Source of the DNA: Streptomyces sp. CC0208
GTDB lineage: Bacteria > Actinomycetota > Actinomycetes > Streptomycetales > Streptomycetaceae
Reading direction: 5' to 3'
DNA length: 64,000 bases
NCBI RefSeq assembly: GCF_003443735.1
Contig: NZ_CP031969.1
Location: 1,054,001-1,118,000 of the forward strand
A program made the position numbers and the translations under genes. The notes beneath the pieces were generated by a model. It did no database searches. It was given only the letters and a program-made list of their open reading frames with translations, and was not told where the DNA came from. Positions 43,392 to 55,363 of this stretch are shown piece after piece. The stretch's first letter is position 1, and each line of letters starts with the position of its first letter.

Positions 43392-44078
43392 TCCCAGCAG
43401 CCATCCGCCGTCCACGCTCAACTCCACCGCGTTGACCGAGCCGTTGCGCAGCAGGAAGTCCACGGCGTCCACCACGTCCGCCACGGTCGCGAGCCGTCCG
43501 GTCGGGGTCCTGGCCCGCAGGCCCGCCAGGACCTCCTCCGGCTTGGCCCGCCAGTAGGGGCTGTCCCCCACCACTCCGGGATGGATCGCGTTGACCCGGA
43601 CGGGAGCGAGTTCGACGGCCAGCGAGTGCATCAGCCCCCTCACCCCGGCGTTGACGGTCGCCACCGTCGTCGCGCCCGGGTAGGGCCGCTCCTTGGCCTG
43701 TCCGCCGAACAGCACGATGGCGCTGTCCTCGTGCAGCCGGGACCGCAGTGCGTGCACGACCGCGGTGTAGCCGACGAGCTTGAGCGTGACGAGATGCACG
43801 GCGGCGTCGATGTCGTACGCGGTGACGCGGTTCTCGTCGCGGGAGATGGCCGCGATCACCAGGTGGTCGACGGCCTCCACGTCGCTCAGCGCGTCGACGA
43901 TCCCCTTCGGCCGCGCGAGGTCCAGGGCGAGTCCCCGGGCGCCGATCTCCTTGGCGACGGTGTCGGTGCGGTGAGGGTCGCGCCCGGTGATCACCACCTC
44001 GTCGCCGCGCTCGGCACGCACCCGGGCGAACTCCCTGCCGATGCCCGAGGTTCCCCCGATCACCACCACGCCGCTCAT
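43389..44078 (-). CDS. short-chain dehydrogenase/reductase
   Basis: The 229-residue SDR has VVVIGGTSGIGREFARVRAERG as cofactor loop and ARGLALDLARP, LFGGQAKERPYPGATTVATVNAGVRGL and VDAVDFLLRNGSVNAVELSVDGGW. The catalytic Tyr-x-x-x-Lys of classical SDRs is not obvious (the corresponding segment reads ATTVATVNAG), so this may be a divergent or atypical SDR. GGAGG precedes the ATG, which overlaps the bicupin stop. It is the last gene of the seven-gene unknown operon. Confidence 0.82.
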   Translation of the reverse strand: MSGVVVIGGTSGIGREFARVRAERGDEVVITGRDPHRTDTVAKEIGARGLALDLARPKGIVDALSDVEAVDHLVIAAISRDENRVTAYDIDAAVHLVTLKLVGYTAVVHALRSRLHEDSAIVLFGGQAKERPYPGATTVATVNAGVRGLMHSLAVELAPVRVNAIHPGVVGDSPYWRAKPEEVLAGLRARTPTGRLATVADVVDAVDFLLRNGSVNAVELSVDGGWLLG

Positions 44079-44947
44079 CGGGAAGCCTCCCTCAGGTAGT
44101 CCCAGTCCCGGGTGAATCGGTAAGAGTGCCGCACCGGCGGCTGCGGCGCCTGCGTCTCCAGCCAACGCAGCGGCCCCGCACCGGCGTTGGAGAAGCCGTG
44201 CACACAACCGGAGCCCGCCCAGGCGCAGTCGCCCGGACCGAGCCGGTACGGCGAACCGTCGAAGACCGCGTCCGCCTCGCCTTCGAGGAACAGATACGTC
44301 TCCTCGAAGGGGTGGTCGTGCGTGCCCGCGACGCCGTCGGGCGCGTACTGCACCATGAACATCGTCGAGGCGACCGCTCCCAGGTCGCCGTCGACCATCA
44401 TCTTCACGGTGATCCCGCTGTAGACGAGCAGCGCGGTCCGCATGCTCGCCGACACCGCGAGCAGGTCCTGGGACTGCTTCCCGGGATCCATCTGGGCGGG
44501 CTCGAAATGCCCGAAGGACCGGGTGCGCGGATCGCGGACGTCGATACGGACGGGTGGGCGCACCGGCCAAGCGGAGACCGCCTGGGTGTCGTACCCGTAC
44601 CGGGCCCGCGGTACCGGAGCGAGCATGTCCGCCCAGCGGGCGACGCCGTCCCCGGCGCCGCGCCAGGCGTGCGGAACACCGGTCGCGAGAAGCCCGTAGT
44701 CGCCCTCCTCCAGCAGATACGCCCCCTCGTGCACATCGAGGATCACGGCCCCGTCGAGGATGTGGAAGCTCTCCTCGTACGAGTGGACATGGGCCGCCAC
44801 GCTCCCGTCGGGGCGCAGCTCGCACACCCCGAAACCGGTGTGCGAGCTGCCGTCGGCATCGCCGACCAACTCCCGTCGCCGGTAGCCGTGTTCGTCGTAC
44901 GACGGCTTCGGGAGGTCGGTGACCCGGCGCACCAGGTGCCTGGTCAC
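44075..44947 (-). CDS. bicupin protein of unknown function
   Basis: The 290-residue protein has two cupin barrels. The N-terminal one includes AAHVHSYEESFHILDGAVIL and LLEEGDYGLLATGVPHAWRG. The C-terminal one includes THDHPFEETYLFLEGEADAVF and LGPGDCAWAGSGCVHGFSN. Both keep His/Glu metal ligands (HVH...E and HDHPFEE...H), so two metal sites are plausible. The architecture recalls ureidoglycine aminohydrolase and gentisate-dioxygenase-like bicupins, but I cannot assign a reaction. The GTG overlaps the amidohydrolase stop (GTGA). Confidence 0.85.
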   Translation of the reverse strand: MTRHLVRRVTDLPKPSYDEHGYRRRELVGDADGSSHTGFGVCELRPDGSVAAHVHSYEESFHILDGAVILDVHEGAYLLEEGDYGLLATGVPHAWRGAGDGVARWADMLAPVPRARYGYDTQAVSAWPVRPPVRIDVRDPRTRSFGHFEPAQMDPGKQSQDLLAVSASMRTALLVYSGITVKMMVDGDLGAVASTMFMVQYAPDGVAGTHDHPFEETYLFLEGEADAVFDGSPYRLGPGDCAWAGSGCVHGFSNAGAGPLRWLETQAPQPPVRHSYRFTRDWDYLREASR

Positions 44948-46290
44948 GCCCGGGCCTCCTTCGCGGCCAGCAGCCGGTCGCGGGATTCCTCGACCAGGCG
45001 CCGGGCACGCGCCACGTCGGCCGTGAGCCTGCCGTCGCGCTTGCGGACAACCCCGTCGACGATGACCGTCTCCACGTTGGACACGTCCGCGCTCAACGCC
45101 ACCGCTGCGGCCGCGTCGTGAACCGGGGCCACGTTCAGGGCGGTCGCGTCGATCGCGACGACGTCCGCGCGCTTGCCCGGGGTGAGCGATCCGGTGCGGT
45201 CCTCCAGGCCGGCGACGTGGGCGCCGTTGCGGGTGGCGATCTCCAGCATCTGACGTGCCGTCAACATGGTGTCGGGGACCGGGACGTCGGCCTGCCAGCT
45301 GGCCGCGTTGACGCGGGCGCGCTCGGCGCCGAAGGCCGCACGGATCTGGGTGAACATGTCGCCGGGCACGGTGGTGACGACGTCGATGCTCAGGGAGGGG
45401 CGCAGGCCGTGCTCGATCGCCTTCATCACCGGCGGCCAGCCGTGCCCCATCTGCGTCTCGACCTGCGGTGCGATGGAGACCGTACCGCCGCTGTCGGCGA
45501 CCAGCCGCCACTCCTCGTCGCTCAGGTAGCAGCAGTGGATGTAGGTGGTGTCGGGGCCGAGCAGTCCGAGGTCGTGGAGCTGCTTGACCATGCCGAAGCG
45601 GCCGGCGAGGCGTCCCATGGCCACGTGCACGGTGATCGGGATGTCCAGCTCGCGGGCGAGGGCCCACTCGGAGGTGACGACGTCGTTGACGCAGAAACCG
45701 GGGCCGCGGGTGGCGAGGGCCAGGGTGAGCAGGCCCGCGTCGGAGGAGAAGTACTCCGTGCGGATCCGGCGTACGTCGTCGCCCGGAATCGCGATCTTGC
45801 TCTCGAACCAGTAGTCGGCGAGCGAGGTGTTGGCGCTGCCGTACGCGTACTGGGCGCGGATGCCGCTCTCCGTGAGGGCCCGGATCGCCGCGTCCGGGTG
45901 CTCGGGCGTGTTGTTGATGTGGGACCAGTCGACCAGCGTGGTGATGCCGGCGTTGAGGCACTCCAGGGCGCCCGCGAGGTTGGCGGCGTAGACGTCCTCG
46001 GGGGTGTAGAGAGGGGCGAAGGTGTCGAGGATGTCGACGAAGTAGTCGTCGAGCGTGGCGTCGGGCGCCACGTTGCGGATCGACGCCTCCCAGGTGTGGC
46101 GGTGGCTGTCGACGAAGCCGGGGATCACGATGCGGCCGGTCATGTCGAGGACTTCGGCGTCCGCGCCGATCTCGCGGTCCACGGCCGCGATCCACCCGTC
46201 CTCGATGAGGACGTCCCCCCTCGGCAGGTCCCCGACGGCGGGGTCCATGGAGAGCACGTGTCCGGCACGAAGGAGTATCCGATGGGTCAT
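44944..46290 (-). CDS. amidohydrolase (AtzA/TrzN-like, aminohydrolase group)
   Basis: The 448-residue TIM-barrel metal hydrolase has the metal-site His63 and His65 in PGFVDSHRHTWEAS. Further sites are His in PITVHVAMG, His in TYIHCCYLSDEE and the metal Asp in LSIDVVTT. LEDRTGSLTPGKRADVVAID closes the beta-sandwich part. Relatives deaminate or dechlorinate s-triazines, guanine-type bases, 8-oxoguanine or other N-heterocycles. In this operon it probably removes an amino or similar group from a heterocycle or amide. GAGGAGGAAG precedes the ATG. Confidence 0.87.
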   Translation of the reverse strand: MTHRILLRAGHVLSMDPAVGDLPRGDVLIEDGWIAAVDREIGADAEVLDMTGRIVIPGFVDSHRHTWEASIRNVAPDATLDDYFVDILDTFAPLYTPEDVYAANLAGALECLNAGITTLVDWSHINNTPEHPDAAIRALTESGIRAQYAYGSANTSLADYWFESKIAIPGDDVRRIRTEYFSSDAGLLTLALATRGPGFCVNDVVTSEWALARELDIPITVHVAMGRLAGRFGMVKQLHDLGLLGPDTTYIHCCYLSDEEWRLVADSGGTVSIAPQVETQMGHGWPPVMKAIEHGLRPSLSIDVVTTVPGDMFTQIRAAFGAERARVNAASWQADVPVPDTMLTARQMLEIATRNGAHVAGLEDRTGSLTPGKRADVVAIDATALNVAPVHDAAAAVALSADVSNVETVIVDGVVRKRDGRLTADVARARRLVEESRDRLLAAKEARA

Positions 46291-46312
46291 CGCGCTTCCT
46301 CCTCAGGGATGT

Positions 46313-47293
46313 TCAGTACGCGGCCAGATTCCTGACGGCCGCCACGACCTTGTCGACGGTGGGAATGACCTGTTCCTCCAGCACGTCCGCGAACGGCAGC
46401 GGCACGCACTCCCCCGCCACCCGCCGCACCGGCGCGTCCAGCAGCCCGAACCCCTCGTCGGCCACGACGGAGACGAGCGTCGCGCCCCAGCCGCCCTGGT
46501 ACGGGTTCTCCTCGACGGTCACCAGCCGGGAGGTCCGTCCGAGGGAGGCGAGCACGGTGGCCGTGTCGAGCGGCACGAGGGAGCGCAGGTCGACGACCTC
46601 GACGCCGATGCCGTCCTCGGCGAGCCGCTCCGAGGCCGTGAGCGCGACCGGCACCATCGAGGCGAGCGCCACCAGCGTCACGTCGGCTCCCTCGCGCACG
46701 ACGGCCGCGCGGCCCAGCTCGACGACGTGGTCCGGCGGCGGGGGCGCCCCCTTGGTGGCCAGCAGTCCCTTGTGCTCGAAGAACACGACCGGGTCGTCGC
46801 TGCGGATGGCCGCCGCCATCATCCCGATGACGTCGGCGGGCGTGGCAGGGGCCGCGATCTTCAGTCCGGGAACGGTCAGTGCCCAGTTCTCGGTGGCCTG
46901 CGAGTGCTGGGCGCCGAAACCGAGCCCGCCACCGTTGGCGGTGCGCACCACGAGGGGCACGGTCACCTGACCACCCGTCATGTAGCGCACTTTGGGTATC
47001 TCGTTGGCGAGGTAGTCCCAGCAACAGGCCAGGAAGTCCGAGAACATGATCTCCGCGACGGGCCGCATCCCGGTCATCGCGGCACCCATCGCCGCGCCCA
47101 CGATGGCCTGTTCGGAGATCGGCGTGTCCCACACCCGCTCGGACCCGAACTCCTTGTGCAGTCCGGCGGTCGTCTTGAACACCCCGCCGGCCGCACCGAT
47201 GTCCTCCCCCAGGCAGACGACGGACGGATCGCGTCGCATCTCCCGCGCGATGCCCTCGGCGACCGCCTCCCGGTACGAGATCACGTCCGCCAT
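46313..47293 (-). CDS. 2-oxoacid/acetoin dehydrogenase E1 component, beta subunit
   Basis: The 326-residue protein is a transketolase-like E1 beta chain: ISYREAVAEGIAREM, GEDIGAAGGVFKTTAGLHKEFG, TPISEQAIVGAAMGAAMTG with the catalytic-type Glu, and RLVTVEENPYQGGWG in the C-terminal domain. With the alpha chain it forms a heterotetrameric thiamine-diphosphate decarboxylase. GGAGG lies six bases before the ATG at 47293, inside the end of the alpha gene. No E2 or E3 gene is nearby, so it must borrow them or act as a stand-alone decarboxylase or synthase. Confidence 0.9.
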   Translation of the reverse strand: MADVISYREAVAEGIAREMRRDPSVVCLGEDIGAAGGVFKTTAGLHKEFGSERVWDTPISEQAIVGAAMGAAMTGMRPVAEIMFSDFLACCWDYLANEIPKVRYMTGGQVTVPLVVRTANGGGLGFGAQHSQATENWALTVPGLKIAAPATPADVIGMMAAAIRSDDPVVFFEHKGLLATKGAPPPPDHVVELGRAAVVREGADVTLVALASMVPVALTASERLAEDGIGVEVVDLRSLVPLDTATVLASLGRTSRLVTVEENPYQGGWGATLVSVVADEGFGLLDAPVRRVAGECVPLPFADVLEEQVIPTVDKVVAAVRNLAAY

Positions 47294-48258
47294 GCCGCAC
47301 CTCCGTCCGCCCATACGTCGGTGAAGGCCTCGCGGGGATCGGGCGGCGGCGCGTTCTTCGCGGCCTCGACCGCCTCCTGTACGACGGTCCGCGCGCGCTC
47401 GTCGGCCTCGGCGACCCTCTCCTCGGGCACCCCTGCCTCGACGAGCCGCCCGCGCGCGATGTCCAACGGGTCGTGCTTGAGCCAGCGTTCGACCTCCTCG
47501 GCCGGGCGGTAGGTCGCCGGGTCGGTCCGGCTGTGCCCGAAGTGGCGGTAGGTCTCGGCCTCCAGCAGGGCGGGCCCGTCTCCGGCCCGGGCCCGCCGCG
47601 CCAGCCGTGCCACCGTCTCCTGGACGGAGACGACGTCGTTGCCGTCGACGACCTCACCGGGGATGCCGTAGGCGGGCGCCCGGTCGGCGGCGGGCCGGGG
47701 CACCGCGGTGACATCGGCGATCGGGGTGTACTCCATGTACAGGTTGTTCTCGCAGACGAACAGCACCGGCAGCTTCCACACGGCGGCCAGGTTCAGCGCC
47801 TCGTGGAAGGCGCCGATGTTGGTGGCGCCGTCCCCGAAGAAGGCGACCGCGAGCTGTCCGGTGCCGCGCAGCTTCGCCGACCAGGCGGCGCCGACCGCCA
47901 TCGGGAGGTGGGCGCCGACGATGGCGTAGGAACCGAGCATGTTCGTGGCCGCCTTGGTGAGGTGCATGGAGCCGCCCTTGGCCCCGCACAACCCCGTCGC
48001 CCTGCTCATGAGTTCGGCGAGGCATTCCTCGGGGGTCGCGCCCCGGGCCATCGCGTGGTGGTGGCCGCGATAGGTGGCGAAGACGTAGTCGTCGTCGCGC
48101 AGGGCGGCGCTCGCGCCGACGGCGATCGCCTCGTGACCGGCGGCGAGGTGGGTGGTGCCCTTGACGAGGCCCTGGAGGAACAGGTCGTGGGCGGCCTTCT
48201 CGGTACGGCGGATGAGGACCATCTGCTCGTACAGGGCGAGGAGTTCACCGGTGTCCAT
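47281..48258 (-). CDS. 2-oxoacid/acetoin dehydrogenase E1 component, alpha subunit
   Basis: The 325-residue E1 alpha chain has VLIRRTEKAAHDLFLQGLVKGTTH, the region ATYRGHHHAMARG and the ThDP motif FFGDGATNIGAFHEALNLAAVWKLPVLFVCENN. The phosphorylation-loop-like RHFGHSRTDPATYR is also present. The size and motifs fit the acetoin/pyruvate dehydrogenase E1 alpha group (AcoA, PdhA). It precedes the beta gene with a 13-base overlap and itself overlaps the end of the M24 gene by 14 bases. The true 2-oxo or acyloin substrate is unknown. Confidence 0.9.
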   Translation of the reverse strand: MDTGELLALYEQMVLIRRTEKAAHDLFLQGLVKGTTHLAAGHEAIAVGASAALRDDDYVFATYRGHHHAMARGATPEECLAELMSRATGLCGAKGGSMHLTKAATNMLGSYAIVGAHLPMAVGAAWSAKLRGTGQLAVAFFGDGATNIGAFHEALNLAAVWKLPVLFVCENNLYMEYTPIADVTAVPRPAADRAPAYGIPGEVVDGNDVVSVQETVARLARRARAGDGPALLEAETYRHFGHSRTDPATYRPAEEVERWLKHDPLDIARGRLVEAGVPEERVAEADERARTVVQEAVEAAKNAPPPDPREAFTDVWADGGAAWRT

Positions 48259-49603
48259 CGCCGCTCCCCCGGTGTCCGTCCGCGGTCCCGGTGTTCAGGT
48301 GGGACTGTGCCTCCCGGGCGGTGTTGAGCTCGCCGCCGACCGTCCAGTACTTGCGGCCCGCGACCAGGAGTTCCTCGGCGGGGAACTTGGTGATGACCTC
48401 GCAGCCGTCGGCGGTGACGACCAGTTCCTCCTCGATCCGGGCGGCGGACCAGCCGTCGGCGGCGGGCCAGTAGGTCTCCAGGGCGAACACCATGCCCTCT
48501 TCGAGGACTTCGGGGTGGTCGAGGGAGACCAGGCGGCTGAAGACGGGCTTCTCCCAGATCGACAGTCCCACGCCGTGGCCGTACTGGAGAGCGAAGGCGG
48601 CGGTCTCGTCGGCGAAGCCGAACTCCTCTGCGCGCGGCCACACTTGGACGATGTCGGCGGTCGTGGCGCCCGGCCGGACGAGGGAGATCGCCTGGTCCAT
48701 GTACTCCCGGCAGCGGACGTACGCGTCCCGTTGCGCTCGGGAGGCGCTGCCGACGGCGAAGGTGCGGTAGTAGCAGGTGCGGTAGCCGAGGTGGCTGTGC
48801 AGGATGTCGAAGAAGGCGGGGTCGCCGGGGCGGATCAGGCGGTCGCTGTAGACGTGCGGGTGGGGTGAACAGCGTTCGCCCGAGATGGCGTTGACGCCTT
48901 CGACGTACTCACTGCCGAGGTCGTAGAGAACCTTGCTGACCAGCCCGACGCACTCGTTCTCGCGGATTCCGGGGCGGAGGTGGGCGTAGAGCTCCTCGTA
49001 CGCCGCGTCGACCATCGCGCAGGCCTGGGCGAGCAGGGAGATCTCGTCGCCGGTCTTGACGCGGCGGGCCTCCAGGAAGACCTGCTGGCCGTCGACCACG
49101 TCGATGCCCTCGGCCCGCAGGGCGGCGAGCACGGGCATCTCGGCGACGTCGATGCCGAGGGGTTCGCCGGCGAGGCCGTGGGCGCGCAGTTCGGCGGCGA
49201 TCTTCGCGGCGACGTCCTCGGCGATCCCGGCGTCCGGGTGGAAGGCACCGCGCAGAGTGGAGATGCCGGCACGGGCTCCGGTGGGCGGCCCGTCCTTGCC
49301 GTCGCTGTAGTCGAGCCACGGGTTGTAGAGCTGGTGGTGGCGGGCCGCGGAGCCGAAGTCCCACACGATCGGTTCGCCGCCGCGGACCAGCAGGGCGAAG
49401 CGGATCAGCTTGTCCATCGCCCAGGTGCCGATGTGCGTGGCGGTCATGTAGCGGATGTTGGCGAAGTCGAAGCTGAGCACGGCGCCCAGTTCGGAGCGGT
49501 TCAGCGTGTCGTGGAGCCGGGTCAGGCGCTGTCGGCGCAGCCGGTCGAGGTCTACGCGCTCTTCCCAGTCGACGGCATTGGGGCCGTATGTGCGGATCGC
49601 CAT
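48245..49603 (-). CDS. M24-family (pita-bread fold) protein with an altered metal site
   Basis: The 452-residue protein has an N-terminal creatinase-like domain (GAVLSFDFANIRYMTATHIG) and a C-terminal aminopeptidase-P/creatinase fold. Of the five dinuclear metal ligands, Asp266 (FFDILHSH), the His of YGHGVGL, and Glu in EEGMVFALET and RIEEELVV are present. The position 11 residues after Asp266, an Asp in metal-dependent members, is Cys277 in GYRTCYYRTF. Creatinase and DddP-like DMSP lyases show this fold can do non-peptidase chemistry. The ATG at 49603 is my choice; six more codons are possible. It is the first enzyme gene after the XRE-cupin regulator. Confidence 0.85.
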   Translation of the reverse strand: MAIRTYGPNAVDWEERVDLDRLRRQRLTRLHDTLNRSELGAVLSFDFANIRYMTATHIGTWAMDKLIRFALLVRGGEPIVWDFGSAARHHQLYNPWLDYSDGKDGPPTGARAGISTLRGAFHPDAGIAEDVAAKIAAELRAHGLAGEPLGIDVAEMPVLAALRAEGIDVVDGQQVFLEARRVKTGDEISLLAQACAMVDAAYEELYAHLRPGIRENECVGLVSKVLYDLGSEYVEGVNAISGERCSPHPHVYSDRLIRPGDPAFFDILHSHLGYRTCYYRTFAVGSASRAQRDAYVRCREYMDQAISLVRPGATTADIVQVWPRAEEFGFADETAAFALQYGHGVGLSIWEKPVFSRLVSLDHPEVLEEGMVFALETYWPAADGWSAARIEEELVVTADGCEVITKFPAEELLVAGRKYWTVGGELNTAREAQSHLNTGTADGHRGSGDGHR

Positions 49604-49655
49604 CGCGACCACCCCCACCATCGAGTCAACGACCGTCCACGGGGAGTGTCAAGTG

Positions 49656-50288
49656 TCACTGAACACTTCGGCTCGCCACGAACCAGACGCCCACGGCCGG
49701 TTCGTCGCCGTCGTTGCGGTAGCGATGCGGGGTGGTGGACTCGAAGCAGACGGCGTCGCCGGGGCGCAGGACCTGCTCGTCGAAGCCGAGGGTGAGGACG
49801 AGTTCGCCGGAGGTCAGATAGCCGTACTCGGTGCCGGGGTGCCGCATCAGACCGCCCGAGGTGGAGGAGGACCCGCCGGGCCGGTACGTCACGAGCAGGA
49901 AGTCGACGTCGGTGCCGGGGACGTGCCCGAGCCGCTCCCACACGACACCGGAGTCCAGTTCCAGCACCTCCCGCTCACCGGGTGTGACCAGGGGTCCTAT
50001 GCGTCGGCCGGGATCCGCCGCGAAGGCCGCCAGGGCGTGTACGACGATGGCCTCGCTCGCCGCCACCGCGGTCTCCCGCCCGTCGAAGAGGGCTTCCACG
50101 GAGATGCCGAGAGCCGTGGTGATCGCGTACAGGGTGCTGACCGACGGCTGGCTCTTCCCGGTCTCTATCTGGGAGACCAGGCTCGCGGAGACACCGACCT
50201 CGCGGGCCAGGGCACGCAGGCCGAGACCACGCTCCAGCCGCGCCTGCCGGATACGGGCGCCGACGGAGGGCACGGGGGTAGGGGACAC
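49656..50288 (-). CDS. XRE-cupin transcriptional regulator
   Basis: The 210-residue protein joins an N-terminal XRE helix-turn-helix ([46 protein letters not shown]) to a C-terminal cupin sensor ([20 protein letters not shown] ... [17 protein letters not shown]). Regulators of this type (PuuR-, SutR-like) control catabolic genes by binding small ligands in the cupin. GGAG lies seven bases before the GTG at 50288. The gene is 52 bases upstream of the M24 gene on the same strand and presumably autoregulates the operon. Confidence 0.92.
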
Positions 50289-50346
50289 GGGCGGGCTCCT
50301 CTCCTGTGCAGCCCCATTGAACAACCCGACCCGTCGCCCGGGAAAG

Positions 50347-50373
50347 ACGCCCGCGTCCACCGGGGGCGGGCGT
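50347..50373. repeat. eight-base inverted repeat upstream of the XRE regulator
   Basis: ACGCCCGC (50347-50354) and GCGGGCGT (50366-50373) can form a perfect stem with an 11-base loop, about 60 bases upstream of the XRE-cupin start. It could be an operator or just GC-rich structure. Confidence 0.35.
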
Positions 50374-50430
50374 GCTCTCCCCGGAAGGCTCCTGCGCCGT
50401 ACGAGGGGGGCGTCGCCCGTAGCCCCGGCC

Positions 50431-50508
50431 AGGACCCGCATCCCGGCCGGACGACCCGCGGCCCCCGACGAAAGCCCCGCCCTTCGGAAGAGGACCCGCA
50501 TTCCGGCC
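50431..50508. repeat. 18-base direct repeat, 60 bases apart
   Basis: AGGACCCGCATCCCGGCC (50431-50448) recurs with one change at 50491-50508 (AGGACCCGCATTCCGGCC). The sequence between the copies is unrelated. It lies just upstream of the LuxR-like remnant in a 480-base stretch with no intact gene. Confidence 0.7.
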
Positions 50509-50509
50509 C

Positions 50510-50768
50510 CACGCTCTCGCCGAGGCGGTCCGTGCCGCCGCGGCCGGTGACTCACCGCGCTACCCCCCTCGGCCGCCGGACGTCTGCTCCGGTACCTCAC
50601 CCCGGGCCCGAGGCCGCAGCCGATCGTCGCGCGCCGCCCGGCGCCGGCCACCGCGCCCCTGACCGACCGCGAGTTCGACGTGGTCCGCCTGGCCGCCGCC
50701 CTCGCCGGAGGGACGCGGAGATCGCCGTCCGGCCCGGCAGCACCGGCACGCGCGGCCGGAGAACCGCG
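50510..50768 (+). pseudogene. remnant of a LuxR/NarL-type response regulator (C-terminal part)
   Basis: Three short pieces in different frames read in order like the end of a NarL/FixJ response regulator. They are [14 protein letters not shown] near 50512-50553, AAGRLLRYLTPGP then APLTDREFDVVRLAAALAGG near 50573-50710, and DAEIAVRPGS near 50712-50741. The central LTDRE-FDVVRLAA is the start of the LuxR helix-turn-helix and DAEIA its next helix. At least two frameshifts separate the pieces and no receiver domain is seen. The fragment runs into the end of the convergent kcsA-like gene. Confidence 0.6.
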
Positions 50769-51212: not shown

Positions 51213-51382
51213 GCTCACTCCTCGAAGGCCGGGGGCGGGGCGGGCGCACGGGGCCAGTGTCACCGCCGAGAGGGTGTCCGGCACTTCGGACAGGGCGTTC
51301 GAGTCGCGGGTTCGCGGGACAAGCTGATCATCGGGCGGCACAATGGCCGCAACGGCCGCAGGCACGGAGAAGGAGCACAGTC

Positions 51383-52195
51383 GTGAGCGAGAGCCACACC
51401 CCGTCGGGCGCGTCGGCCAGGCTGAACACAGGTGTGGCGCACAACGCGCGCGTGTGGAACTACTGGATCGGCGGCAAGGACCACTACGAGGTCGACCAGC
51501 GGGTCGGTGACCACGTCGCCGGGATGTTCCCGATCATCCGGGAGATCGCCCGCGCGGACCGCTGGTTCCTGGGTCGCTCGGTGCGCTTCCTCGCCGAGGA
51601 GCGGGGCATCCGGCAGTTCCTCGACGTCGGCACGGGGCTGCCGACGGTGGACAACACCCATGAGATCGCCCAGCGCATCGCGCCCGACGCCCGGATCGTC
51701 TACGTCGACAACGACCCGATCGTCCTCGTCCACGCCCGCACCCTGCTGACCAGCACCCCCGAGGGCGTCACCGACTACATCGACGCCGACGTCCACGACC
51801 CGGCCGCCATCCTCGAACGGGCCGCGCGGACCCTGGACTTCAGCAAGCCGGTCGCGGTGATGATGCTCGGCATCCTCAACTTCGTCCTCGACACCGACGA
51901 GGCACGCAGGATCGCGCACGAGATCATGGCCGCGATGCCGTCCGGCAGCCATCTGGCCCTGACCCACCCCACGTTCGACGCCGACCTCGGCGGCGAGGGC
52001 CAGATCCCGGCCATGAAGTTCTGGAACGAGAACGCCACTCCGCCGATCACGGCCCGCAGCGGCGCTGACATCGCCACGTTCTTCGACGGACTCGACCTCC
52101 TCGAACCCGGCCTGGTCTCCTGCTCGCAGTGGCGTGCCGAGTCCGACTCCCCGGCCGTGGTACCGCAGTTCGGCGCGGTGGCCGTGAAACCCTGA
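51383..52195 (+). CDS. DUF574-type SAM-dependent methyltransferase
   Basis: The 270-residue paralogue of the 42.6-kb gene has ARVWNYWIGGKDHYEVDQRVG, FLDVGTGLPTVDNTHEIAQRIAPDARIVYVDNDPIV and VMMLGILNFVLDTDEARRI. The acceptor is unknown. AAGGAG lies eight bases before the GTG. It is followed, 38 bases on, by the glutamine-synthetase-like gene on the same strand, so the two may be co-transcribed. Confidence 0.88.
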   Translation: MSESHTPSGASARLNTGVAHNARVWNYWIGGKDHYEVDQRVGDHVAGMFPIIREIARADRWFLGRSVRFLAEERGIRQFLDVGTGLPTVDNTHEIAQRIAPDARIVYVDNDPIVLVHARTLLTSTPEGVTDYIDADVHDPAAILERAARTLDFSKPVAVMMLGILNFVLDTDEARRIAHEIMAAMPSGSHLALTHPTFDADLGGEGQIPAMKFWNENATPPITARSGADIATFFDGLDLLEPGLVSCSQWRAESDSPAVVPQFGAVAVKP

Positions 52196-52233: not shown

Positions 52234-53637
52234 ATGACCACCCTTGCCGACCCCGTCCCCGGGGGCCGTCCCGGGGACGTGGACCGGGCCACCGCACTGA
52301 GTGAGGAGCTGTCCGCGAAGGGCGTGCACGGCGTGGTCCTGGCCTATGTCGACACCGCGGGCATCTGCCGGGTGAAGACGGTCCCGACGGCGAAGCTGCC
52401 CTCCGCCGCGGCCTGGGGCGTGGGCATGTCGCCGGTGTTCGACACCTTCCTGGCCAACGACTCCATCGTCACCACGGAGAGCCTGGGCTCCCCGGACGGT
52501 GATCTGCGTCTGTACCCCGATCTGGACCGGCTGGTGGCTCTGGCCGGGCAGCCCGGCTGGGCGTGGGCGCCGGTCGACCGGATCACCCAGGAGGGCGAGC
52601 GCCATCCGGGCTGTTCCCGCACGGTTCTGCGGCGGATCGTCACCGAGGCGGCCGAGCGGCACAGGATCACCTTCGAGGCGGGCATCGAGATCGAGTGGGC
52701 GGTGGGCCGCGGCCCGGCGGCGGACGGTGACTTCGTGCCCGCGGTGTCGGGACCGGCGTACGGCGCCACCCGGCAGGTGGAGCTGAGCGACTACGCGGCC
52801 GACCTGCTGGCGGCCTGCGCCGCCCAGGGCATCGAGGTAGCGCAGCTCCACCCCGAGTACGCGGCCGGGCAGTTCGAGATCTCGACGAGTGCCCTGGACC
52901 CGGTGGCGGCGGCCGACGTCAGCGTCCTCGTACGGCAGACGATCCGTGCGGTGGCCCAGCGGCACGGGCTCGTCGTCTCCTTCGCCCCGGCGGTTTTCGC
53001 GGAGGGCGTCGGCAACGGCGGCCATCTCCACCTCTCCGCCTGGCGCGAGGGCGTGAACCTGCACTCGAGCGGCAAGGGCCGGTACGGCATGACGCGCGAG
53101 GCCGAGTCGTTCGTCGCGGGTGTCCTCGCGCACCTGCACGCGCTGACGGCTCTGACCGCGCCGAGCCCGGCCAGCTATCTGCGCCTCAGACCCTCCCAGT
53201 GGGCCGGGGTGTTCACCGCCTGGGGCCGGGAGACCCGGGAGGCGGCCGTGCGGATCGTCACCGGCACGGCGGGCCTGACCGACCGGGCCGCGAACCTGGA
53301 GCTGAAACCGGTCGACCTCGCCGCGAACCCCTATCTCGCGCTCACCGGGCTGATCGCCGCCGGGCTCGACGGGCTGACCTCGGCCATGCCCCTGCCCAGG
53401 GAGATCACCGGGGATCCGGCCCTGCTCACCGCCGACCGGGCCGCCGCCCTGGGCGTCCGCCGGCTGCCGACCTCCCTGTCCCAGGCGGTCCGGGCCTTCC
53501 GCGCCGACGAACAGCTGCGGGCCGCGCTGGGTCCGGTCCTCGCCGACGCCGTGGTCGCCGTGCGCTTCGGGGAGAGCGACTCCGTGGCCGACCTGGACGA
53601 CGAGCAGATCGCGGCGGCGTACCGCTGGAAGTACTGA
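52234..53637 (+). CDS. glutamine synthetase-like gamma-glutamyl ligase
   Basis: The 467-residue protein is a GS type I-like ligase: VLAYVDTAGICRVKTVP in the beta-grasp part, TFEAGIEIEWAVG and LHPEYAAGQFEISTSALDP in the catalytic barrel. The ammonia/ATP-site stretch appears as SFAPAVFAEGVGNGGHLHLS, and ANLELKPVDLAANPYLALTGLIAAGLDG lies near the end. Members distinct from true GlnA ligate glutamate to amines such as polyamines or ethanolamine. The next gene, two bases away, encodes an amidohydrolase, so ligation and hydrolysis of a gamma-glutamyl amide may be paired. TGGAGGA precedes the ATG. Confidence 0.87.
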   Translation: MTTLADPVPGGRPGDVDRATALSEELSAKGVHGVVLAYVDTAGICRVKTVPTAKLPSAAAWGVGMSPVFDTFLANDSIVTTESLGSPDGDLRLYPDLDRLVALAGQPGWAWAPVDRITQEGERHPGCSRTVLRRIVTEAAERHRITFEAGIEIEWAVGRGPAADGDFVPAVSGPAYGATRQVELSDYAADLLAACAAQGIEVAQLHPEYAAGQFEISTSALDPVAAADVSVLVRQTIRAVAQRHGLVVSFAPAVFAEGVGNGGHLHLSAWREGVNLHSSGKGRYGMTREAESFVAGVLAHLHALTALTAPSPASYLRLRPSQWAGVFTAWGRETREAAVRIVTGTAGLTDRAANLELKPVDLAANPYLALTGLIAAGLDGLTSAMPLPREITGDPALLTADRAAALGVRRLPTSLSQAVRAFRADEQLRAALGPVLADAVVAVRFGESDSVADLDDEQIAAAYRWKY

Positions 53638-53639
53638 GC

Positions 53640-54824
53640 ATGAGCGGACGTGTCCACGAGGCCCTCGCCGCCGCCCGGCTGGTGGACCACCACTGCCACG
53701 GGGTCGTCACCGGCGCACTCGACCGGACGGGCTTCGAGTCGCTGCTCACCGAGGGCAGCGTCTGGCCGGGGATCTCGCCCTTCGACAGCCCCGTCGGCGT
53801 GGCGGTCCGGCGCCATTGCGCGCCCCTGCTGGACCTCCCCCACCACGCATCGCCCGAGGCCTACCTGGCCCGCCGTGCCGAGCTGGGCCCGCACGAGGTC
53901 AACCGCCGCTTCCTGCACGCCGCGGGCACGGACGTGTTCTGCGTGGACACCGGGTACGCGGCGGAACGTCTCACCACACCGGCGGAGCTGGCAGAGGCCG
54001 CGGGCGGGACGGCGTACGAGATCGTGCGGCTGGAGGGTGTCGCGGAGGCGGTGGCGGCGCGGGGCGTGGAGCCGGACGCGTACGCCGACATGTTCCGGGC
54101 GGCCGCTCTGGATGCCGTGGGGCGGCCGGGTGTGGCGGCCGTGAAGTCGGTCGCCGCCTACCGCACCGGCTTCGACCTGGACCCGGCGCGCCCCTCGGAG
54201 GCCGAGGTCACCCGTGCCGCCGCCGACTGGCTCGCCCGCGGCGGCCGGCTGGCCGATCCCGTTCTCGTACGGCATCTGCTGTGGACCGCCGTGGACCTGG
54301 GGCTGCCGCTCCAACTGCACACCGGCTTCGGCGACAGCGACATCCGGATGCACCGCGTGGACCCCACCCACCTCACGGACTGGCTGCACCTGACCGCGGG
54401 CACCGTCCCGGTCCTGCTGCTGCACTGCTGGCCGTACCAGCGGCAGGCCGCCTATCTGGCCGCGGTGTTCGAGCAGGTGTACCTGGACGTGGGCCTCACG
54501 CTGCACTACGTCGGCCCCGCGCGGTCCCGGGCGATCCTGGCGGAGGCGCTGGAGATCACGCCGTTCCGCAAGCTGCTGTACAGCTCCGACGCGTACGGTG
54601 TGGCCGAATTCCATCTGCTCGGCGCGCTGTCCTTCCGGCAGGGTCTGGCCGCTCTGCTCCAGGAGCGGGTGGACGCCGACGAACTGAGCCTGCCGGACGC
54701 CTTGCGCATCGCGGCCTGGACGAGCGGGGACAACGCCCGCCGTCTCTACGGACTTCCCGCCCCGTCCCCGTCCCACCAGGCGAGCGCGACTGAGCACCCG
54801 CCGTCCCCGGAAAGTATGATCTAG
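53640..54824 (+). CDS. amidohydrolase-2 family hydrolase (FluG N-terminal-like)
   Basis: The 394-residue TIM-barrel hydrolase starts with the metal motif LVDHHCHGVV (His18, His20). It continues with LPLQLHTGFGDSDIRMHRVDPTHL, PVLLLHCWPYQRQAAYLA, VYLDVGLTLHYVGPAR and LLYSSDAYGVAEFH, the Asp being the usual last ligand. Its order and motifs match the N-terminal half of fungal FluG and plant NodGS, whose C-terminal half is glutamine-synthetase-like, the kind of gene just upstream. The start is two bases past the GS-like stop. The substrate is unknown. Confidence 0.88.
   Translation: MSGRVHEALAAARLVDHHCHGVVTGALDRTGFESLLTEGSVWPGISPFDSPVGVAVRRHCAPLLDLPHHASPEAYLARRAELGPHEVNRRFLHAAGTDVFCVDTGYAAERLTTPAELAEAAGGTAYEIVRLEGVAEAVAARGVEPDAYADMFRAAALDAVGRPGVAAVKSVAAYRTGFDLDPARPSEAEVTRAAADWLARGGRLADPVLVRHLLWTAVDLGLPLQLHTGFGDSDIRMHRVDPTHLTDWLHLTAGTVPVLLLHCWPYQRQAAYLAAVFEQVYLDVGLTLHYVGPARSRAILAEALEITPFRKLLYSSDAYGVAEFHLLGALSFRQGLAALLQERVDADELSLPDALRIAAWTSGDNARRLYGLPAPSPSHQASATEHPPSPESMI
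54815..54820 (+). promoter_or_regulatory. -10 hexamer of a leaderless promoter
   Basis: TATGAT is a near-consensus -10 element ending six bases before the ATG at 54827. It overlaps the end of the amidohydrolase gene, and the downstream gene has no ribosome binding site. Confidence 0.65.
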
Positions 54825-54826
54825 CA

Positions 54827-55363
54827 ATGTCTGACTTGACCGATACCACGCCCGGCTGGCTGAGCGCCGACGATCTCGAGCAGGCCCGCGCCCGGATGCC
54901 CATCCTGTACGTCGAGGCCGTGCCCGTGCGCGTCGACGACAGCGGCGAAGTCACCAGCGTCGGCCTGCTACTGCGCATAGGACCCGACGGAACGGTCAGC
55001 CGGACTCTGGTCTCCGGCCGCGTTCTGCACCACGAGCGGGTCCGGGACGCCCTCCTGCGTCACCTGGAGAAAGACCTCGGACCCGTGGCGCTGCCCCGGA
55101 TCCCGCCCTCGCTGCAGCCGTTCACGGTGGCGGAGTACTTCCCCACGCAGGGGATCACGCCGTACCACGACCCGCGCCAGCACGCCGTGTCCCTCGTCTA
55201 CGTCGTCCCGGTCAGCGGCGACTGCCAGCCTCGCCAGGACGCCCTGGACCTGGTGTGGTTCAGCCCTCAGGAGGCCCTGTCACCGGCGGTGGCGAGCGAG
55301 ATGCCCGGCGGTCACGGGGTGCTGCTCAAGCAGGCGCTGGCCCACGTGGGGTGCTCGATCTGA
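54827..55363 (+). CDS. DUF4916 / Nudix-like protein
   Basis: The 178-residue protein resembles the actinobacterial DUF4916 group with a Nudix-like fold: ILYVEAVPVRVDDSGEVTSVGLLLRIG, SRTLVSGRVLHHERVRDALLRHLEKDLGPVALP and HAVSLVYVVPVSGDCQPRQDALDLVWFSPQEA. The Nudix box is degenerate (VRDALLRHLEKDLG replaces REUXEEXG), so hydrolase activity is doubtful. A near-consensus -10 sits six bases before the ATG, indicating a leaderless transcript independent of the genes upstream. Confidence 0.8.
   Translation: MSDLTDTTPGWLSADDLEQARARMPILYVEAVPVRVDDSGEVTSVGLLLRIGPDGTVSRTLVSGRVLHHERVRDALLRHLEKDLGPVALPRIPPSLQPFTVAEYFPTQGITPYHDPRQHAVSLVYVVPVSGDCQPRQDALDLVWFSPQEALSPAVASEMPGGHGVLLKQALAHVGCSI

Follow-up and report, generated by a model that had tools for sequence, protein, structure and literature searches.

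Layout of the locus

What do a glutamine synthetase (GS)-like protein and an amidohydrolase do together when their genes lie side by side, in a pairing that recalls the fused enzymes FluG of fungi and NodGS of plants? The window analyzed here (the whole stretch of 64,000 nucleotides, G000:C1:1054001-1118000, of a 9.32 Mb genome) carries such a pair. Both coding sequences lie on the plus strand, encoding 467 and 394 amino acids respectively. Their coordinates and Pfam domains (Gln-synt_C, 4.8e-73, and Gln-synt_N_2, 3.8e-9, in the first protein; Amidohydro_2, 3.5e-18, in the second) confirm what the preliminary description had read from the sequence, a GS-like gene followed by an amidohydrolase gene with two bases between stop and start (Table 1). 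The next gene, of NUDIX/DUF4916 type, begins two bases past the amidohydrolase gene, and a methyltransferase gene lies 38 bases 5' of the ligase gene. Both flanking genes accompany the pair in loci of seven close relatives (L036-L041 and L043) and were not found at L042 or L044. Because it is absent from the description of the Streptomyces coelicolor locus, the methyltransferase gene is probably outside the core module. A minus-strand cluster at 43392-50651 of the window encodes an HTH-cupin regulator, an M24 peptidase, alpha and beta subunits of an E1 dehydrogenase, an Amidohydro_1 protein and an SDR. We rejected this 43-50 kb cluster as part of the module, since, of the Streptomyces loci compared, only L037-L039 share its E1 and M24 genes.

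Table 1. Features of the pair and its surroundings in the window, and locations of the decayed paralogue.
Feature	Position	Strand	Evidence or context
S-adenosyl methyltransferase (Methyltransf_19)	51257..52195	+	Pfam
Predicted gamma-glutamyl-amine (polyamine) ligase, GlnA3 (SCO6962) orthologue	52234..53637	+	Pfam; 12/12 published GlnA3 residues; PA5508 clade
Amidohydrolase-2 family protein, SCO6961 / FluG N-half type	53640..54824	+	Pfam; seven residues; AlphaFold; 2QPX fold
NUDIX-type protein (DUF4916), positional counterpart of SCO6960	54827..55363	+	Pfam
Decayed paralogue, own genome	L048:7992-9134 (G000:C1 about 6.782 Mb)		between transketolase-transaldolase-G6PD-OpcA cluster (tkt-tal-zwf-opcA) and ctaA
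Other decayed copies	L020-L022, L024, L027, L033-L035, L047, L049-L053, L055, L151, L152, L154		

The pair corresponds to glnA3-SCO6961 of S. coelicolor

In S. coelicolor, glnA3 (SCO6962) is followed by SCO6961, of the amidohydrolase 2 family, and then by SCO6960, which encodes a small protein; the three genes are likely co-transcribed, and all respond to polyamines by induction (PMC5403932). The window has the same order of ligase, amidohydrolase 2 and small protein. Its ligase carries all 12 published GlnA3 residues (metal, glutamate, ATP and pocket) at a constant offset of +1; six other offsets gave at most four matches and none of 10,000 shuffles reached 12. This comparison used published residues and gene order and not the S. 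coelicolor sequence itself, and on the strength of both we identify the locus as a glnA3-SCO6961-SCO6960 operon. The genome that carries it appears Streptomyces-like from its composition and genes. The two loci differ upstream, where the S. coelicolor description places SCO6963-6965, encoding a lipoprotein and two small proteins (PMC5403932), and the window has the methyltransferase gene.

The pair is already known as S. coelicolor glnA3-SCO6961, a locus in print since 2017 (PMC5403932), and neighboring bacterial GS and amidohydrolase genes have already been related to FluG, in an account that cites Strong 2003 and Iyer 2009 for the adjacency (PMC6478659). New here are the counts of adjacency without any fusion, the spread of the pair over at least seven phyla, its co-occurrence in Actinomycetota and the decay of the hydrolase without the ligase.

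The ligase belongs with PA5508

Among PDB entries, 4HPP (PA5508; E 7.7e-50) matches the ligase sequence best. In the alignment the ligase keeps the metal, glutamate and ATP residues, while the ammonium-handling residues of true GS are replaced, the flap glutamate by W323 and the ATP-site asparagine by H266, as they also are in PA5508 and FluG according to the tables of PMC6478659. Together with W323 at the flap, a score of 182.2 bits against the cut-off of 429.15 led us to reject a true glutamine synthetase (GlnA, TIGR00653). The cut-off of the gamma-glutamylputrescine synthetase equivalog NF045547 was missed as well (308.1 against 650 bits). In a quick-mode tree of 109 rows, which took ligases within 5.5 kb of an amidohydrolase, carries SH-aLRT support only and has its long branches flagged, 101 ligases and 4HPP (PA5508) fell into one group (SH-aLRT 100). 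Two GlnA-type enzymes and one type III enzyme (3 PDB entries) lay outside this group, as did the four further GS-like matches from the same genome as the window.

S. coelicolor GlnA3 forms gamma-glutamylputrescine in vitro and accepts free polyamines (PMC5403932), from which we infer by analogy that the window ligase glutamylates polyamines. Related enzymes differ in their reported preferences: mycobacterial GlnA3 prefers spermine (PMC11841054), and bulky amines are cited as the preferred substrates of PA5508 (PMC6478659). The latter's genome, that of Pseudomonas aeruginosa, is described as having no SCO6961 orthologue (PMC5403932), so that PA5508 works there without the partner, whereas the window ligase has one alongside. 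Within the tree PA5508 pairs, with support of 100, with a ligase from the window's genus: at locus L046 (G003) this PA5508-type ligase precedes the amidohydrolase, apparently through an exchange of partners.

The amidohydrolase retains a complete metal site

All seven residues tabulated for FluG and 2QPX are present in the window amidohydrolase: the two M-alpha histidines (H18 and H20), the carbamylated lysine (K169), the tyrosine (Y174), the two M-beta histidines (H227 and H262) and the aspartate (D317). Its sole PDB sequence match up to E 1 is 2QPX (LSEI_0440 of L. paracasei; E 2.4e-33). An AlphaFold model built on an alignment of 34 sequences reached a mean pLDDT of 94.1, and Foldseek again placed 2QPX first (TM 0.82, E 4.8e-23), followed by a Planctomyces amidohydrolase 2 and uronate isomerases with TM of 0.60-0.65. 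The Foldseek search gave no close match among enzymes of known reaction.

Relation to FluG and NodGS

FluG, in the literature since 1994 according to the references of PMC6478659, is one protein with the amidohydrolase first, and PA5508 and LSEI_0440 can replace its halves (PMC6478659). These two proteins are also the best PDB matches of the window pair. Both enzyme halves are shared between the pair and FluG, NodGS and CsTSI, a plant GSI-like fusion; comparison by published residues finds all seven tabulated amidohydrolase residues and the GGL/FluG-type ligase residues of FluG in the window. The arrangement differs, FluG and NodGS being single polypeptides with the amidohydrolase first and the window having two genes with the ligase first. 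The kinship with FluG that had been proposed for the window pair is thereby supported indirectly, and the pair looks like a bacterial counterpart, in unfused form, of FluG and NodGS. A literature search, mostly without full texts, returned no paper linking SCO6961 to FluG by name. If the pair is indeed an unfused relative of FluG, S. coelicolor, an organism easily handled in the laboratory and with a known ligase substrate, would offer a direct route to FluG chemistry.

The architecture common to FluG and NodGS also lends itself to another interpretation, in which the pair makes and trims a gamma-glutamyl developmental signal, as thought for FluG in conidiation, and does not serve amine degradation. 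CsTSI makes theanine and has been linked to root development (PMC9909507), which speaks for such a role. The direct evidence from S. coelicolor, however, points to polyamine catabolism and detoxification (PMC5403932), and the module also occurs on Deinococcus plasmids, which argues against a developmental signal as well; we regard this interpretation as improbable.

The pair is conserved across phyla

We collected 156 distinct amidohydrolases (>150 bits and >300 residues) from the fetched loci and recorded the position of the nearest GS-like gene, gaps being measured here and in the divergence test between domain matches and not between codons. In 86 cases a GS-like gene preceded the amidohydrolase on the same strand by no more than 400 nt, and in 15 it also lay upstream on that strand, but further off (425-3112 nt). 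The ligase was directly downstream once (L153), and other arrangements accounted for 5/156. The remaining 49 had no ligase in the fetched stretch, the stretches varying in extent down to 269 nt for the shortest upstream one. None of the 156 was fused to a ligase. A weak remnant below our thresholds (L220, 51 bits) shares an open reading frame with a 27-bit GS fragment. L153 (G048) is the sole locus of the 156 with the amidohydrolase before the ligase as in FluG, with 43 nt between the domain matches.

Part of the collection came from a pattern scan of genome contigs that found 570 relatives and from which we retained the best 80; genome samples supplied the others. The two patterns used to pick these 80 loci cover K169-Y174 and H227, so their intactness is partly selected, and the profile-based Actinomycetota sample described below is the fairer test. 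Judged from record titles, the phyla with pairs number at least seven: Deinococcota, Chloroflexota, Cyanobacteriota, Bacillota, Actinomycetota, Thermotogota and Rokuibacteriota. Distribution of the hydrolase was patchy, with any match in 42 of 246 Actinomycetota genomes and, in the phyla of a Fischerella, a Gemmataceae and a Rokuibacteriota genome, matches in 3/146, 18/149 (16 of the 18 weak) and 18/95 genomes respectively. Both proteins have diverged in step (Mantel r 0.89 over 84 adjacent pairs, 0/999 permutations); the mismatched comparisons passing thresholds numbered 11 and all involved L046. At another locus, L043 (G013), an active-type amidohydrolase is split over two overlapping open reading frames beside a whole ligase, through either a sequencing error or a real break.

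Co-occurrence with the ligase and decay without it

Among the Actinomycetota, 26 genomes had both an intact-type hydrolase and a pair-type ligase, 1 had the hydrolase only, 3 the ligase only and 216 neither (Fisher 1e-30, kinship ignored). Scoring in this sample covered the 6 or 7 strongest first-look candidates of each genome, and the top score of each genome was used. We set the boundary separating pair-type from ordinary ligases (391 versus 366 bits) by eye after seeing the gap, and the table excludes 11 genomes with weak matches (at most 78 bits). Of the 27 intact-type genomes, 25 had their residues checked; G013 (frameshifted, L043) and G156 (a contig-edge fragment) were counted as present unchecked. 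The single hydrolase-only genome, G166, is 85% complete. In four genomes (G053, G067, G200 and G221) the only full-length-type hydrolase has lost metal ligands, and none of the four has a pair-type ligase. The resulting comparison, ligase present or absent with the intact type 26/1 and with the decayed type 0/4, gives a Fisher value of 1.6e-4, which overstates independence because the four genomes come from about two lineages.

Elsewhere, a Meiothermus genome with changed metal-ligand positions had no pair-type ligase (best 320 bits). Where five other genomes carried an intact-type hydrolase without an adjacent ligase, a pair-type ligase was found elsewhere in four: about 0.4 Mb away in G285, on another contig in G286, about 4 kb away in G289 and about 6 kb away in G292 (392 bits only). 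In the fifth, G314, no pair-type ligase accompanied the intact-type hydrolase, and G303 showed the converse, a ligase without the hydrolase. All seven residues were kept in 107/107 hydrolases with a ligase in the stretch, a figure inflated by the pattern selection, and in 23 of the 49 without one, the other 26 having lost at least one.

The claim of a conserved partnership is upheld by adjacency, co-occurrence and matched divergence alike. That the two genes are chance neighbors, each with its own unrelated function, is contradicted by the same three lines, and we rejected it on the adjacency in 86/156, the Mantel r of 0.89 and the co-occurrence table; it can practically be dismissed. Co-occurrence and the pattern of decay argue instead that the hydrolase serves the ligase, and this narrows the choice of assays.

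A second amidohydrolase, 41-49% identical to the first, was present in 22 of 25 genomes of the window's genus (G000-G024), and G012 had only two partial matches, 318 kb apart. No ligase was found beside this paralogue in the loci fetched. All 19 paralogues checked, 17 from the G000-G024 genomes and two from the Actinomycetota sample, lack three metal-site residues (lysine, tyrosine and aspartate), and in a quick-mode tree they cluster as a single clade (SH-aLRT 100) that arises from within the paired active proteins. The paralogue is apparently a conserved, dead enzyme.

A proposed tag-and-release reaction

We propose that the ligase and amidohydrolase of the glnA3-type operon act in one pathway: an amine would be tagged by the ligase, the tagged amine oxidized and its glutamate removed by the amidohydrolase, FluG and NodGS being the fused form. 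To this reading we assign a probability of about 0.6. Using ATP, the ligase would join the gamma-carboxyl of glutamate to the amine, most likely a polyamine. Oxidation would fall to enzymes encoded elsewhere; neither an oxidase nor an aldehyde dehydrogenase was found in the module. The binuclear-metal amidohydrolase would then cleave the gamma-glutamyl amide and free glutamate, the job done in Escherichia coli by the unrelated PuuD, and the eukaryotic proteins may have arisen by fusion of enzymes of these two types.

PuuD is a C26-type hydrolase and not a metal amidohydrolase. The window's genome has six PuuD-type C26 matches, so the hydrolase step could be served without the amidohydrolase. 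We considered that the amidohydrolase might be a needed replacement in a genome without PuuD-type hydrolases, and rejected this since C26 matches occurred in 14/14 genomes and 14/14 controls, which also means that their presence says little. Elsewhere in the same genome, a PuuD-type C26 protein, an aldehyde dehydrogenase and an SDR are encoded next to another GS-like gene (L245, G000:C1:7230000-7246000), a cassette that we count, by analogy, as support for the cassette logic.

The E. coli PuuA-PuuD putrescine pathway follows the same logic of a ligase and a gamma-glutamyl amide hydrolase (PMC9397018). SCO6961 has been placed at the hydrolase step as a prediction (PMC5403932), and cleavage of the gamma-glutamyl amide by the amidohydrolase, predicted in both PMC5403932 and PMC9397018, fits its coupling to the ligase. 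We count against the proposal the C26 matches, the lack of an oxidase or aldehyde dehydrogenase in the module, the reported absence of an SCO6961 orthologue from P. aeruginosa, the 49/156 hydrolases without a ligase in the stretch (23 of them intact), the genome G314 and the mycobacterial glnA3 deletion, which did not raise sensitivity to spermine (PMC11841054).

More tentatively, and at slightly worse than even odds, SCO6961-type proteins may constitute a family of metal-dependent gamma-glutamyl-amide hydrolases unrelated to PuuD, intact mainly alongside the ligase and decaying without it. FluG and NodGS would then be the fused eukaryotic form of the bacterial module, with ligation and cleavage of gamma-glutamyl amines as their chemistry, and the decayed Streptomyces copy, kept in most genomes sampled, would possibly have taken on a new, non-catalytic role.

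Neighboring genes and the range of substrates

In other phyla the pair is neighbored by branched-chain amino acid type ABC transporters, APC permeases, FmdA formamidase, Cyclase, isochorismatase-type and SDR genes. With such transporters, formamidase, Cyclase-family and SDR neighbors, polyamines need not be the general substrate, and other amines or amides are suggested. Several loci lie near genes for FmdA formamidase, Cyclase (PF04199), isochorismatase-type proteins, N-formylglutamate amidohydrolase or M20, as might be expected if the amidohydrolase acted before the ligase, cleaving an acylated, formylated or cyclic amide to supply the amine that the ligase would glutamylate. This order has been proposed for FluG, whose N-half product could feed the C-half (PMC6478659). 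The S. coelicolor pair, in contrast, is induced by polyamines and its GlnA3 takes free polyamines in vitro (PMC5403932), and we consider the reversed order unlikely, if less so than a signaling role. Tagging by the ligase with later release by the amidohydrolase remains our preferred order.

Several loci had further genes around the pair. In Actinomycetota MAGs (L119, L125, L127, L139 and L140), APC permease and SDR genes surround it, as assigned by clustering and, for L119, by Pfam; L125 has in addition an isochorismatase-type gene by scan. A gene of 863-868 amino acids lies between ligase and amidohydrolase in two Nostoc loci (L101 and L105), with several GAF domains in L101, the one of the two that was scanned. 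In Thermalbibacter longus (L131:7141-8247), the amidohydrolase gene is followed on its own strand, practically without a gap, by an M24/creatinase-type gene.
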